The notes beneath the pieces are model-generated. The model was not told the DNA's origin. It saw only the letters and a program-made list of their open reading frames with translations, and searched no databases. 16,785 bases of DNA from Candidatus Syntropharchaeum sp. (lineage in GTDB: Archaea > Halobacteriota > Syntropharchaeia > Alkanophagales > Methanospirareceae): positions 1 through 16,785 of the forward strand of contig JADHYP010000009.1 of NCBI GenBank assembly GCA_016782355.1. The letters are read 5' to 3'. Positions 2,322 to 16,190 of this stretch are shown here, piece by piece. How positions within the stretch are numbered: position 1 is the first letter of the stretch; each line of letters opens with the position of its first letter. Both the position numbers and the translations under genes were made by a program.

Positions 2322-3845
2322 CTACCCTGCCCTGCTTCCAAACTCCATTACCTTTACCTTCATCTCGGAAAGCTCTACAAGCGTTGCACATCCCGGAACG
2401 GGATTTATATTCCTCTTTTTTTGATATGGCGTCTGCGATTGCCACGTCCCGGAATTTATCAGTAGCACGTTCCGGTATTTAGAAATGCCGACTGTATGCG
2501 TATGCCCGCAATGGAATATATCCGGAACACGGTCAATTACTCCGTAATCGTGCCCGTCGGGAACGATAGAGACTGCGTTTCCATATATAAGCGCAACATG
2601 CCGTCTTTTAAGCATCTCCGCCATCACTTCCTCCGGCTTTGAATAACTCAGCCTCGATACCGAGTTAACGAAATCATCGTAAGATTGCCCGTGATATATC
2701 AAGACAAGCCTGCCGCCAATTTTTACGTATGCGGGGTTGCTCACAAAGCAGGTATTATCCGGGAAGAGCTTCCTGAGTGCCTCGGGCAAAGGCGGTTGTG
2801 GCTCGGCATTCCTGACCGCATCATGGTTCCCCGGTGCTACCACCACGTGTATGTGCGAAGGGAAATCGTGAAAATATCCCGCCGCTATTTTATATTGCTC
2901 CTCTATATCCATAATTGACAACTCTTCCTCCTGACCCGGATATACGCCTATTCCATCCACAATATCGCCAGCAACAACTAAATACGCAATTCCGATGCTT
3001 CTGGATTCCTCTTTTAACCACTGCACAAAACTACCCCATGCTTCTTCCAAAAATGTGTTGCTTCCTACGTGCATATCCGAAATAAACACTGCATATATGC
3101 GCTTTTGCCCACCATTTCCCCCTCCTCTCTCGTTATCGTTAGAGCCATGACCTGAGTTGAAGTTGGCTGGAAGCGGTAATGATGATTGCGAAGTTGAAGA
3201 AGGGATAGGCACGTCCGGATATGTCACTCTATTTGCAAATAAATAACCGCCATCTGATAAAGAACCAGTAACGCCTATTATCTCATCCGGTATTATTCCC
3301 TCTTGATTTCGCAATATAACCTGTAGATGCCCCGTAGCGTCTTCTAATTCCACCCGGATATTTCCTTTCGCCGTTTTATTTACGGAAGCGACCATTCCCA
3401 CCACTGAAACCTCTTCGCCTCGCATACCATTTCTTATATATCTTATCTGCCGGCAGTTCATCCTCCTTTTTATTATCACGCTTATCCGCTCATATCTGTC
3501 AAGGAAATGCGGTAAGAAATCTTTGTGGTCCACACCCCTGCCATTGTCAGAGAACGATTTAATTATAGCCGGAGCCGGTACATGCGTTTGTTTTTGAAAG
3601 CTGATGCCCCCTTCTTTTTCTACCTTTCCTGCCACATTATTTTTGATAAATTCAGCTATCTGCTCGGTGGAAATCACAAAAATCGAAGGGTCTAAGGAAT
3701 CAGTTACGTTTTCTACTATCTCATTGAGGTCAAAACGGCTTTCGGCTTCTGATTGACTCAGCAATTCAATCGCTTCCGGCTGGACTTGAAATCCCAACTC
3801 GGCGAACCTCTTCACTATTTCTATTCCATTCTGCTTCACAGCCAT
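2322..3845 (-). CDS. polB: DNA polymerase D small subunit (DP1, exonuclease subunit)
   Basis: A 507-aa protein, typical DP1 length. An OB-fold region lies at about residues 140-210. A flexible Ser/Asn/Gly linker (about 212-247) follows, then a calcineurin-like phosphoesterase domain. Metal-site motifs are intact: D257 and H259 in ISDMHVGS, D294 in GDIVDGIG, N340-H341-D342 in PGNHD, H385 in YHGQ, and H448/H450 in CGHTH. It ends with the family's NSGTWQSQTPYQKK block. DP1 gives the euryarchaeal replicative polymerase D its 3'-5' proofreading nuclease and partners the DP2 catalytic subunit, which is not in this window. The ATG at 3845 lies inside the end of trxA (10-bp overlap), and uppS follows closely, so these are probably one transcript. 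Confidence 0.95.
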   Translation of the reverse strand: MAVKQNGIEIVKRFAELGFQVQPEAIELLSQSEAESRFDLNEIVENVTDSLDPSIFVISTEQIAEFIKNNVAGKVEKEGGISFQKQTHVPAPAIIKSFSDNGRGVDHKDFLPHFLDRYERISVIIKRRMNCRQIRYIRNGMRGEEVSVVGMVASVNKTAKGNIRVELEDATGHLQVILRNQEGIIPDEIIGVTGSLSDGGYLFANRVTYPDVPIPSSTSQSSLPLPANFNSGHGSNDNERGGGNGGQKRIYAVFISDMHVGSNTFLEEAWGSFVQWLKEESRSIGIAYLVVAGDIVDGIGVYPGQEEELSIMDIEEQYKIAAGYFHDFPSHIHVVVAPGNHDAVRNAEPQPPLPEALRKLFPDNTCFVSNPAYVKIGGRLVLIYHGQSYDDFVNSVSRLSYSKPEEVMAEMLKRRHVALIYGNAVSIVPDGHDYGVIDRVPDIFHCGHTHTVGISKYRNVLLINSGTWQSQTPYQKKRNINPVPGCATLVELSEMKVKVMEFGSRAG

Positions 3846-4264
3846 TCCTTTACCTTAGCTTCTAAATACTGCTTTGGCAACGCTCCCTGTATGACGTCCA
3901 CCGGCTCACCATTTTTAAAGATGAACAACGTGGGTATAGCCATAATCGCAAATTCAGCAGCTACTCTCGGGTTCTCGTCCACATTCAGTTTTCCAAACAC
4001 GACTTTACCTGCATATTCCTTCGATAATTCCTCTATTACCGGTGCAACCATTCTGCAAGGACCACACCAGGGAGCCCAGCAATCCACGACCACCAGTGGA
4101 TACTTTCGTACCGTTTCTATAAAGCTATTGTCGTCTATTGTCAGGGGATGGCCTATTACACCCTCTTTATTCTCCTCTCCCGTCGCTTTTATCTCCTCGC
4201 TCATCTCGCGCATCTTTCTCTCTTTTATCCGCTCTATCTCTATCTCTTCTTTTTCTTCTCTCAT
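3836..4264 (-). CDS. trxA: Thioredoxin
   Basis: A thioredoxin fold with the redox motif WCGPC (C67, C70 of 142) in VVVDCWAPWCGPCRMVAPVI, and the cis-proline loop MAIPTLFIF. It reduces protein disulfides in the cytoplasm. About 40 highly charged residues (MREEKEEIEIERIKERK...) precede the domain. The ATG at 4264 has GAGGAAGAGG immediately upstream, but internal ATGs (M18, M21) could be the real start. An extra cysteine, C62, sits where most thioredoxins have Phe (VDFWA). The gene overlaps polB by 10 bp downstream. It also overlaps the short upstream frame by 4 bp (ATGA), a translational-coupling arrangement. A/T-rich TATA-like stretches at about 4280-4305 could give it its own promoter. Confidence 0.93.
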   Translation of the reverse strand: MREEKEEIEIERIKERKMREMSEEIKATGEENKEGVIGHPLTIDDNSFIETVRKYPLVVVDCWAPWCGPCRMVAPVIEELSKEYAGKVVFGKLNVDENPRVAAEFAIMAIPTLFIFKNGEPVDVIQGALPKQYLEAKVKEWL

Positions 4265-4449
4265 ACCTCTTCCTCTGTATCTTTTAAAAATTGATTTTTA
4301 AAAACGTGGAATTCTTGATAAAACTTTCTGTTTAAAAAAGTTTTTGTACCGTATTGTGGTTGCCTCTTAACGGTCATCGCCATCTTTCGAAGGAGGCATA
4401 CCGCAGGGACCGTGCAATACGGCTTTGTTTGTAGCCCTTCGTTTGCCAT
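4261..4449 (-). CDS. Short frame of 62 codons upstream of trxA, doubtful as a protein
   Basis: From the ATG at 4449 the frame encodes 62 aa (MANEGLQTKPYCTVPAVCLL... to DTEEEV), with no recognisable domain. In favour: GGAGG lies 9 nt upstream of this ATG (an ATG at 4458 also exists), a TATA box is correctly placed at 4520-4532, and the stop overlaps the trxA start as ATGA. Against: its first half coincides with a potential pseudoknot RNA (4349-4422). Its second half is untypical A/T-rich sequence with an inverted repeat and promoter-like runs. It may therefore be a structured leader or small RNA rather than a coding gene. Confidence 0.35.
   Translation of the reverse strand: MANEGLQTKPYCTVPAVCLLRKMAMTVKRQPQYGTKTFLNRKFYQEFHVFKNQFLKDTEEEV
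4320..4344. repeat. A/T-rich inverted repeat downstream of the pseudoknot element
   Basis: AAAACTTT (4320-4327) and AAAGTTTT (4337-4344) pair perfectly across a 9-nt loop. Read leftward, the hairpin follows directly after the 4349-4422 structure and precedes the trxA start by about 60 nt. It could end a short RNA or be part of the leader. A similar A/T hairpin stretch is seen at 15743-15786. Confidence 0.4.
4349..4422 (-). ncRNA. Candidate pseudoknotted RNA element in the trxA-polB-uppS-thpR leader
   Basis: Three helices can form together. P1 is CCGTATTG (4349-4356) with CAATACGG (4415-4422), 8 bp and perfect. P2 is ACGGTC (4370-4375) with GACCGT (4408-4413), 6 bp and perfect. P3 is GGTTGCCTC (4358-4366) with GAGGCATACC (4393-4402), 9 bp with one bulged base. 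P2 and P3 cross, giving an H-type pseudoknot closed by P1. Junctions are only 1 nt on each side of P1, and a 17-nt segment between the knot halves could form a small hairpin. The minus strand is favoured because a TATA box at 4520-4532 points leftward to trxA. I do not recognise it as a known riboswitch or ribozyme. Confidence 0.45.
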
Positions 4450-4458
4450 AGTAATCAT

Positions 4459-4477
4459 CCTCCGCCGTTTAGCGAGG
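4459..4477 (-). promoter_or_regulatory. Hairpin that would hide the GGAGG ribosome binding site
   Basis: On the minus strand CCTCGC and GGCGGAGG pair (CCTC with GAGG, GC with GC, one bulged G) around a loop of about 6 nt. This locks up the GGAGG at 4463-4459 that precedes the start codons at 4458 and 4449. It lies within the predicted leader that begins near 4499. Confidence 0.35.
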
Positions 4478-4519
4478 TCAAACTACTCTTCGAAAAGGGC
4501 AATTTTATATTCGCTCTTC

Positions 4520-4532
4520 TTATATATAAAGG
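4520..4532 (-). promoter_or_regulatory. TATA-box promoter for the trxA leader/operon
   Basis: The minus strand reads CCTTTATATATAA here, a good archaeal BRE/TATA. Transcription would begin about 25 nt on, near 4499, giving a leader of about 50 nt before the ATG at 4449. Confidence 0.5.
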
Positions 4533-4549
4533 TAATTGTATAGCTCAGT

Positions 4550-4700
4550 AAAAATCCCAACTTCCAAGCATAGCCAATAGCCAGGTAGCGGTTAGGGGTC
4601 AGAGATCAATTACAAATTACGAATATTCAACTATGATTTTTTTTTCTCCTCATTCATAATTCCTGGCTGCACCCTATTCCCTATTGGCTATTCCCTATTC
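4550..4700. repeat. Imperfect inverted repeat built of 'TATTGGCTATTCCC'-like words
   Basis: TAGCCAATAG (4571-4580) is the exact reverse complement of CTATTGGCTA (4681-4690), and CCAGG (4581-4585) matches CCTGG (4662-4666). The right arm repeats CCCTATT-type words. The middle is A/T-rich with a run of nine or more T. The right arm runs into the 3' end of the tes-like gene and provides its stop codon. It is similar in style to the other intergenic repeats of this window but different in sequence. Confidence 0.55.
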
Positions 4701-14009: not shown

Positions 14010-14052
14010 AGACAGGAAATCATGGGGAAAAGTTGATCAAACTATCCTGTCT
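14010..14052. terminator. Possible bidirectional hairpin between convergent FrhB-family and vapC genes
   Basis: AGACAGGA (14010-14017) and TCCTGTCT (14045-14052) form a perfect 8-bp stem around a 27-nt loop that itself holds a near palindrome (GTTGATCAAAC). The right arm overlaps the last codons of vapC. No T-tract follows, so the terminator role is tentative. Confidence 0.3.
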
Positions 14053-14462
14053 GCTTCGTCCGGCGTGAGTGTTTTATCCTTCAGTTCTGGAATCCTCGTA
14101 AAATGCTTTTTGTTCTCCGTAAGCAGATAATCTCCGCTTTTATAAAGAAAAGTTGCGGCAATAGCGACATCCTGGTATTCTATTACCGAGCCCTCTGTAA
14201 TTAGAAAAGCATTTATCTGACCTATTATTTCGGCTATTTCCGTGTTTAAAGGGACGATTTCGAAATTTGCGAATAACCTCTTCGCCTTTTGGATTGCCTT
14301 CTTATAATCCTTCCTCAAATAGGTTCCCGTGAAAATCTCAGACGGAACAACCGCACTTATAAAAATTTCATGCTTTTGCAGCAGGTTTTCAATGGGTTCT
14401 ATTGTTCCCTCCTTGCTCCTCTCTATCTCTATAATTATGCTCGTATCCAGAGATATCTTCAT
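14037..14462 (-). CDS. vapC: VapC-type PIN-domain ribonuclease toxin
   Basis: A 141-aa PIN-domain protein. The metal-binding acidic residues are at the expected places: D6 in [10 protein letters not shown]42 in VVPSEIF, D98 in [15 protein letters not shown], and E116/N117 in LLTENKKHF. Such proteins are Mg-dependent endoribonucleases, usually inhibited by the co-transcribed antitoxin. Its ATG overlaps the antitoxin stop by 4 bp (ATGA), the classic toxin-antitoxin coupling. It converges on the FrhB-family gene. All key residues are present, so it looks functional. Confidence 0.9.
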
Positions 14463-14704
14463 GGAATTATACCCAACCTTTTGAACCTATCTCTTGAATC
14501 AGTCCTCAGTTTTTCAAGTGTAAAATTGAAGTCCCGGGGCAAGAAGTCGTTGTATTCGCTTAAGACGGTTTTAATCTTCTTGATTACGACTTTTTCATCT
14601 TCTATGCTGATATCCACTTTTTCACCTTCTTTCAACTTTAAATCCTCCTTTTTCAAAGGCTTAAACACTCCATTCTCATAAACAACCTCGATTGTTTTTG
14701 ACAT
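14459..14704 (-). CDS. DUF104 (AF2212-like) family antitoxin
   Basis: An 81-aa protein with the DUF104 signature: [16 protein letters not shown], then [17 protein letters not shown]-terminal charged tail ([20 protein letters not shown]) would bind and block the toxin. The family is mostly archaeal and regularly pairs with VapC-type PIN toxins, as here through an ATGA overlap. The ribosome binding site GGAGG is 16 nt from this ATG but only 5 nt from an intervening ATG-TAG start-stop pair (14715-14710). This may reduce or time antitoxin translation. It follows the small membrane-peptide gene by 43 bp. Confidence 0.88.
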
Positions 14705-15806: not shown

Positions 15807-16190
15807 ATGAGGATAATCAGCATATCGCTAACGGAGGAGCTATTGGAGGAGATAGACGGGCTACAAAAGGAACTCGGCTTCTCCGGAAGGTCCGAAGTGA
15901 TAAGAGCCGGTGCACGTATGCTCCTTGCGGATAACAAAGAGAAAGAGAAGCTGGAAGGCAGGCTGAATTCCGTGCTTTTGCTCATTCATACACAGAAAGT
16001 GGAGGATACCGTAACGGAGATAAAACATGAATTTGGGGACATCATAAGCACTCAGATTCATAACCATTTGAGGGGGGATAAATGTCTCGAAGTGTTCATT
16101 TTAGATGGTGACGCTGCTCGAATAAAGCACCTGGTTAGATTGTTCCAGACGAGCGGGAAAATGGATTACGTTAAGTTGGTCATGGCGTAA
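15807..16190 (+). CDS. nikR: Nickel-responsive regulator NikR
   Basis: A 127-aa protein. Residues 1-42 are a ribbon-helix-helix DNA-binding domain (MRIISISLTEELLEEI, GFSGRSEVIRAG). The C-terminal ACT-like nickel-binding domain follows. All four square-planar nickel ligands of E. coli NikR are conserved in spacing: H74, H85, H87 and C93 in KHEFGDIISTQIHNHLRGDKCLEV. The protein ends normally at YVKLVMA. NikR represses nickel uptake when nickel is plentiful, relevant where nickel enzymes such as methyl-CoM reductase dominate. No Shine-Dalgarno sequence is seen, so the transcript may be leaderless or the repeats upstream may act as an operator. It diverges from the His-rich membrane protein. Confidence 0.93.
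   Translation: MRIISISLTEELLEEIDGLQKELGFSGRSEVIRAGARMLLADNKEKEKLEGRLNSVLLLIHTQKVEDTVTEIKHEFGDIISTQIHNHLRGDKCLEVFILDGDAARIKHLVRLFQTSGKMDYVKLVMA

Follow-up and report, generated by a model that had tools for sequence, protein, structure and literature searches.

What is encoded by a short, helix-rich stretch lying in front of a trxA-like thioredoxin gene in an uncultured ANME-1 archaeon (Candidatus Syntropharchaeum sp., contig JADHYP010000009.1, whose first 16,785 nt form the window analysed here)? Three long helices can be drawn in 74 nt at 4349-4422, namely P1 (CCGTATTG/CAATACGG), P2 (ACGGTC/GACCGT) and P3 (9 pairs with one bulge), and the original prediction crossed P2 with P3 inside P1 to give an H-type pseudoknot in a leader, interpreted as a riboswitch-like cis-regulator or as a small structured RNA that could not be assigned to a known class. 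The three helices are genuine complementary stretches and the leader position also stands, since trxA starts at 4264 and a thioredoxin-like frame is found downstream at most ANME-1 loci. The idea of a small structured RNA proved sound in an enlarged form, namely a conserved RNA gene of two hairpins with ACA boxes. We assign this gene, with great confidence, to the box H/ACA pseudouridylation guide RNAs, as a divergent ANME-1 representative of the HgcG (Pab40/Pf7) group.

The conserved unit extends from ~4501 to 4342 and is about double the 74 nt proposed. Across 20 aligned loci the sequence is near-identical between ~4503 and 4343, single-base indels occur and the flanks are not conserved. With window positions 4261-4500 as query, a blastn-type search matched 55 of 59 genomes at E<=1. 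Of these 55, 32, all from the family of the window and including its own genome, matched the element at E 4.3e-18 or lower; the others matched weakly or through an A/T-rich stretch. A covariance model built from the 20 aligned sequences matched 45 of 58 genomes of the class, all 45 belonging to the same family (ANME-1/Methanophagales), and a short pattern of the element compared with named records found many Methanophagales/ANME-1 assemblies among the matches listed, together with many chance bacterial ones. A mobile repeat was considered and rejected, the own genome holding a single full copy and a sole other match of 17 bases (E 0.92). The search of the window for tRNA and tmRNA genes found none. 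Some copies deviate: hairpin I is intact and hairpin II unrecognisable at locus L239 (genome G033), and at L230 (G009) and L228 (a second copy in G021) GAACGCGACGAC-like repeats enlarge the hairpin I apical loop. Elsewhere in the window, inspection of the open reading frames by eye suggested a PIN-domain-like toxin with a DUF104-like antitoxin, and a NikR-like regulator (14037-14704, minus strand, and 15807-16190, plus strand).

The layout of the gene is given in the table. The TATA-like box lies ~25 nt upstream of the RNA gene, and a loose TATA-like pattern occupies the equivalent place in 45 of 46 ANME-1 loci. The K-turn-like residues, recognised by sequence, are G-A/G-A for hairpin I and UA/GAUGA for hairpin II; both sets are invariant in the ANME-1 alignments. 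The distance from the upper stem to the ACA box, counted on the window, is 15 nt in hairpin I and 14-15 nt in hairpin II, in agreement with the archaeal H/ACA rule of ~14-15 nt; productive H/ACA folds are described as 10/5/9 and 10/6/9 in PMC4652768.

Table. Predicted features of the guide RNA locus, in window coordinates.
Feature	Position	Strand	Basis and remarks
Predicted H/ACA guide RNA with both hairpins	4342..4501	-	conservation and fold; ends inferred from TATA-like box spacing and from ACA plus 3 nt
TATA-like box TTTATATATAA	4520..4530	-	sequence
Hairpin I	4434..4500	-	lower stem GCCCTT/AAGGGC, upper stem GTAGT/ACTAT; alignment and fold
Hairpin I K-turn-like G-A/G-A element with 3-nt bulge	within 4434..4500	-	alignment and fold
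Hairpin I 5' guide arm CGAAG	4488..4492	-	pairs with 23S CUUCG
Hairpin I 3' guide arm GCAAAC	4441..4446	-	pairs with 23S GUUUGC
Hairpin I ACA box (U-ACA)	4430..4432	-	invariant in 20/20 aligned sequences
Hairpin II (the 74 nt of the original prediction)	4349..4422	-	lower stem P1, nested upper stem CCCTGCGG/CCGTTAAGAGG; fold and homologue covariation
Hairpin II K-turn-like UA/GAUGA	within 4349..4422	-	sequence
Hairpin II 5' guide arm ACGGTC (one P2 strand)	4408..4413	-	pairs with 23S GACCGU; invariant in 35/35
Hairpin II 3' guide arm AACC	4358..4361	-	pairs with 23S GGUU
Hairpin II ACA box (U-ACA)	4345..4347	-	invariant in 20/20 and 35/35
trxA-like thioredoxin gene	3836..4264	-	downstream conserved neighbour, outside the RNA

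We explored the folding of the minus strand by minimum free energy (MFE) with a program that handles nested folds only, pseudoknots being beyond its reach. Positions 4343-4501 fold into two nested hairpins at -51.6 kcal/mol (z -3.59, none of 200 shuffles as good); hairpin I alone gives -22.7 kcal/mol (z -2.61) and hairpin II -25.9 kcal/mol (z -2.96, 1/200 shuffles as good). In hairpin II the MFE structure retains P1 and pairs the CCCTGCGG-side bases with the CCGTTAAGAGG-side bases, taking up the strands of P2 and P3, so that the structure predicted by this program is a nested hairpin with re-partnered strands. The 74 nt as such fold better than chance, and the nested MFE structure by itself does not speak against a pseudoknot. 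Simple energies of the drawn variants, which contain no pseudoknot energy, are -12.2 for P1+P2, -16.9 for P1+P3 and -18.4 for P1 with the nested upper and apical stems.

Covariation was analysed separately inside and outside ANME-1. The ANME-1 alignment of hairpin II holds 35 distinct sequences from 43 loci, which had been collected with a pattern in which P1 and the P2 5' strand were already present. It excludes L237-L239, which are truncated or, in the case of G033, have no recognisable hairpin II. Under the pseudoknot model P1 is paired in 100% of cells with 7/8 pairs never varying, P2 in 97.6% with 5/6 pairs never varying, and P3 in 78.2%, two of its pairs having one both-sided change each; part of the P3 loss may correspond to a one-column misalignment in some rows. 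The covariation score of this model is 0.033 vs 0.037 in shuffles, and that of the nested model, whose upper stem is paired in 96.1% and apical stem in 73.3% of cells, is 0.035 vs 0.036. The invariant pairs of P1 and P2 therefore give no evidence either way, and, as the covariation of both models stays at shuffle level, the ANME-1 sequences do not decide between them. In the divergent ANME-1 copies L232, L235 and L236 the P3 5' strand seems, by eye, to be part of a small apical hairpin.

More telling were the homologues outside ANME-1, of which 52 distinct sequences were aligned (54 extracted less two duplicates; seven with hand-set ends). Under the nested model both-sided changes occur at 14 of the 15 pairs of the lower plus upper stem, in 146 cells vs 46.5 in shuffles, and the score is 0.555 vs 0.269 shuffled, with 0/500 shuffles as high and slid versions reaching at most 0.189; these homologues were gathered with a model that pairs P1 and their upper stem was fitted by eye, which favours the nested structure. 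The upper stem is paired in 82.4% of cells and is not among the pairs of Rfam's own HgcG structure line. P2 is paired in 69.5% of cells, its outer two pairs being broken in 43/52 and 36/52 sequences, its inner two never varying and three of the six having few both-sided changes, which leaves P2 a small chance. In the covariation test proposed for the three helices, P1 covaries once the non-ANME homologues are added, and P2 and P3 fail as a conserved crossing pair, with no covariation above shuffles in ANME-1 and a frayed P3. P1 forms the lower stem of hairpin II; P2 and P3 draw on a guide arm and on stem strands whose partners lie elsewhere. Most likely, the pseudoknot arises from these guide-arm and stem sequences as a side effect.

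The class of the RNA was indicated by comparison with Rfam. At gathering scores there is no match anywhere in the window, whereas a relaxed search of 4300-4560 recovers HgcG (RF00064) at 4312-4559 on the minus strand over the full model (1-276 of 276), with E=7.5e-5 for the 261 bases searched and 23.3 bits against a gathering cut-off of 77; the next-best match has E 6.2. A known class is thus available for an element first left without one. Riboswitch families are absent at gathering scores and up to E=10 over the searched stretch, and in place of riboswitch-like features we find ACA boxes, guide arms and nested covarying hairpins. HgcG occurs at E<=0.1 in 79 of 294 genomes of the phylum, 41 of them above the cut-off; 12 of the 79 belong to the window's family, in each of which the best match falls on the element and none exceeds the cut-off, the highest score being 46.5 bits vs 77. 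Two stricter whole-genome searches found no HgcG match in the window's own genome. Whole-genome searches of 14 control genomes matched HgcG in two at E<=10, neither above the cut-off, and in none at E<=0.1. Nop10 (PF04135), the only H/ACA protein searched, is present in 11 of 12 ANME-1 genomes, including the own one. HgcG is the Pab40 of Pyrococcus abyssi, according to PMC4652768. We found no published description of an ANME-1 copy of this RNA in a partial coverage of the literature, and the guide RNA gene is apparently unannotated so far in ANME-1 methane oxidisers.

Each hairpin offers a candidate target in 23S rRNA (E. coli numbering via rrlB). For hairpin I it is the U within GUUUGC-U-A-CUUCGAUG of ANME-1, which corresponds to 2496; on either side of it the rRNA is complementary to the arms GCAAAC and CGAAG, 12 bp in all, in 9/9 ANME-1 genomes with a readable site; among shuffled arms, 8/1000 reached the score of hairpin I on one ANME-1 23S plus 16S. 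The target was read in relatives only, as 23S rRNA is missing from the assembly of the window and its genus-mates G000-G002 gave no LSU match. Among 20 other genomes, G226 and G055 being kept in the count, the six-base 3' arm is complete in 11 (wobbles allowed) and the 5' arm fully Watson-Crick in 5, in a comparison that took the best window per stretch and so favours matches. Guide and rRNA change together: CUUCG goes with CGAAG (ANME-1, G081) and CCUCG with CGAGG (G047, G127, G080, G110), GUUUGC with GCAAAC (ANME-1) or GCGAAC (G046, G109), and GCUUGC with GCAAGC or GCGAGC (9 genomes). Exceptions are a poorer fit in G154 and G079, a G at the target position in G055, and the bacterial-looking rRNA site of G226. 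In vitro, Pab40 guides modification of U2588 in P. abyssi, the counterpart of U2592 in T. kodakarensis (PMC6138745). We infer that U2588 is E. coli 2496, because the pseudouridines 2589, 2592 and 2607 given there then fall on U at 2493, 2496 and 2511. Judged from sequence pairing and its co-variation, hairpin I is thus likely to guide the pseudouridylation of U2496. Two observations on the rRNA itself may be added. The 23S match lies in several pieces, insert- or intron-like, on G009 contig C1 (255412-258207) and G004 contig C15 (13472-15088), neither target site being readable in the fragmented LSU of G009; and in helix 69, A1916 (E. coli) is C in 9/9 ANME-1 genomes (at the loci listed below for the A-loop) and in G055 (L271), and A in the other 5 genomes read.

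The arms of hairpin II fit GGUU-U-A-GACCGU at U2586, the last U of GGGUUU corresponding to 2586 in E. coli. This is the top rRNA-internal match in 7/7 ANME-1 genomes scanned, with a higher score outside the LSU in G006; 72 of 1000 shuffled arms did as well. Two points favour this target: GTC and ACCC of hairpin II are invariant in 52/52 non-ANME homologues, and PMC2584109 proposes HP1 of H. volcanii, described as homologous to Pf7 stem II, for Psi2621, equal to E. coli 2586. Two points speak against it: the modification, reported in that paper for Haloarcula, was not found in P. abyssi, and the arm of the sister family, ATACCC, fits U2586 more poorly. On these pairings, we hold it to be somewhat more probable than its opposite that hairpin II guides U2586; if it does, it would provide a test case for a site with that distribution (PMC2584109). 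Hairpin II of other lineages fits both the A-loop and the U2586 sites, and we no longer favour, as the leading interpretation, a retargeting of ANME-1 hairpin II from the A-loop to U2586, since PMC2584109 had already suggested 2586 as the target of the homologue. In the 9 ANME-1 genomes read (L262, L264-L269, L274, L276) the stem of the A-loop is AAGACUGUUCGUCUAU, and in most other lineages read it is GAGGUUGUUCGCCUAU.

HgcG copies elsewhere bear, by eye, a third hairpin, which is also described for HgcG-type RNAs in PMC2584109. A model of it built from 10 sequences gave strong matches in G101, in G127 and G047 (both among the training set) and in G036 and G037 of the sister family. In the window's family, 18 genomes gave no match with E under 0.5; a diverged copy may lie elsewhere in the ANME-1 genomes. 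In the sister family, L313 (G037) and L314 (G036) show stems II and III of an HgcG-like RNA; stem I is absent from the stretch read in G037, and the G036 contig starts inside stem II.

The position in front of trxA suggests another explanation, a cis-acting leader in which a riboswitch-like pseudoknot controls the trxA operon by ligand or redox state. Neighbour and ATG parsing took in 45 of 46 ANME-1 loci, and a thioredoxin-like frame with the motif WC[GA]PC follows downstream in 40 of these 45; L224 has such a frame with WCSPC, and the remaining four loci stop at or near contig ends. This neighbourhood and the near-invariance of P2 in ANME-1 speak for a leader, but the unit has an upstream hairpin with an ACA box and guide arms, P3 is paired in 78.2% of cells, the pseudoknot model has no covariation above shuffles, and homologues elsewhere covary as nested hairpins; we regard such a leader as very improbable. 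The same conserved placement could be explained by an H/ACA-derived RNA that is co-transcribed with the operon as its leader and has an added regulatory role on the trxA message. Neighbourhood conservation alone is nevertheless weak evidence, and both the distance to trxA and the spacer sequence are variable, which leaves this dual role with a still smaller chance.

P2 could also represent a real alternative state of the guide RNA, in which GACCGU masks the hairpin II arm ACGGUC in cis and opens only on rRNA or protein binding. GACCGU is also the predicted rRNA target sequence, so the guide would be self-inhibited, and we consider such a state very improbable. Finally, a small protein-coding gene with a reading of 62/65 aa would agree with the open frame and the GGAGG upstream of its ATG; however, the aligned loci differ by indels that are not multiples of three, and the ATG pattern is present in 28 of 45 loci with lengths of 7 to 62 codons, 62 occurring in the window's copy only. 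The 62-aa reading is therefore not conserved, and we reject the protein, whose probability is negligible, on account of the frame-breaking indels and the unconserved ATG and length.

We propose for the H/ACA guide RNA that each hairpin, composed of a lower stem, a guide pocket, an upper stem bearing a K-turn-like element, and an ACA box on the 3' side, would assemble with Cbf5, L7Ae, Nop10 and Gar1, and that the assembled hairpin would hold a 23S uridine for conversion to pseudouridine. The predicted uridines, U2496 for hairpin I and probably U2586 for hairpin II, both belong to the peptidyl transferase centre. As suggested by the features described above, this copy would be transcribed, form a catalytically active RNP and act in its own cell.

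The present study annotates a conserved RNA gene of uncultured ANME-1 methane oxidisers and extends to them the HgcG group, an assignment backed by guide-target co-variation. It further suggests that the hairpins of HgcG-type RNA were lost separately in different archaeal lines, and illustrates that in a single sequence guide arms and stem strands can mimic a pseudoknot. The riboswitches with an H-type pseudoknot, such as preQ1-II, SAM-II, fluoride and the like, resemble the element only in the drawn P2/P3 topology, with no Rfam riboswitch match. Haloferax volcanii, compared by the description in PMC2584109, offers in HP1 a homologue of Pf7 stem II with the same proposed target; HP1 and HP2 are far apart there and no stem I was found, whereas in ANME-1 hairpins I and II are adjacent and III was not found. 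Compared with HgcG/Pab40 (Pf7 in P. furiosus), the ANME-1 RNA scores below the gathering cut-off, is shorter, gave no third hairpin in 18 family genomes, and has a longer 5' arm in hairpin II (ACGGUC) and AACCA in place of AACCC; nevertheless, it shares with them the arrangement and shape of its first two hairpins, the ACA boxes, the full-length match to the model and a hairpin I target which, by spacing, appears equivalent to P. abyssi U2588.
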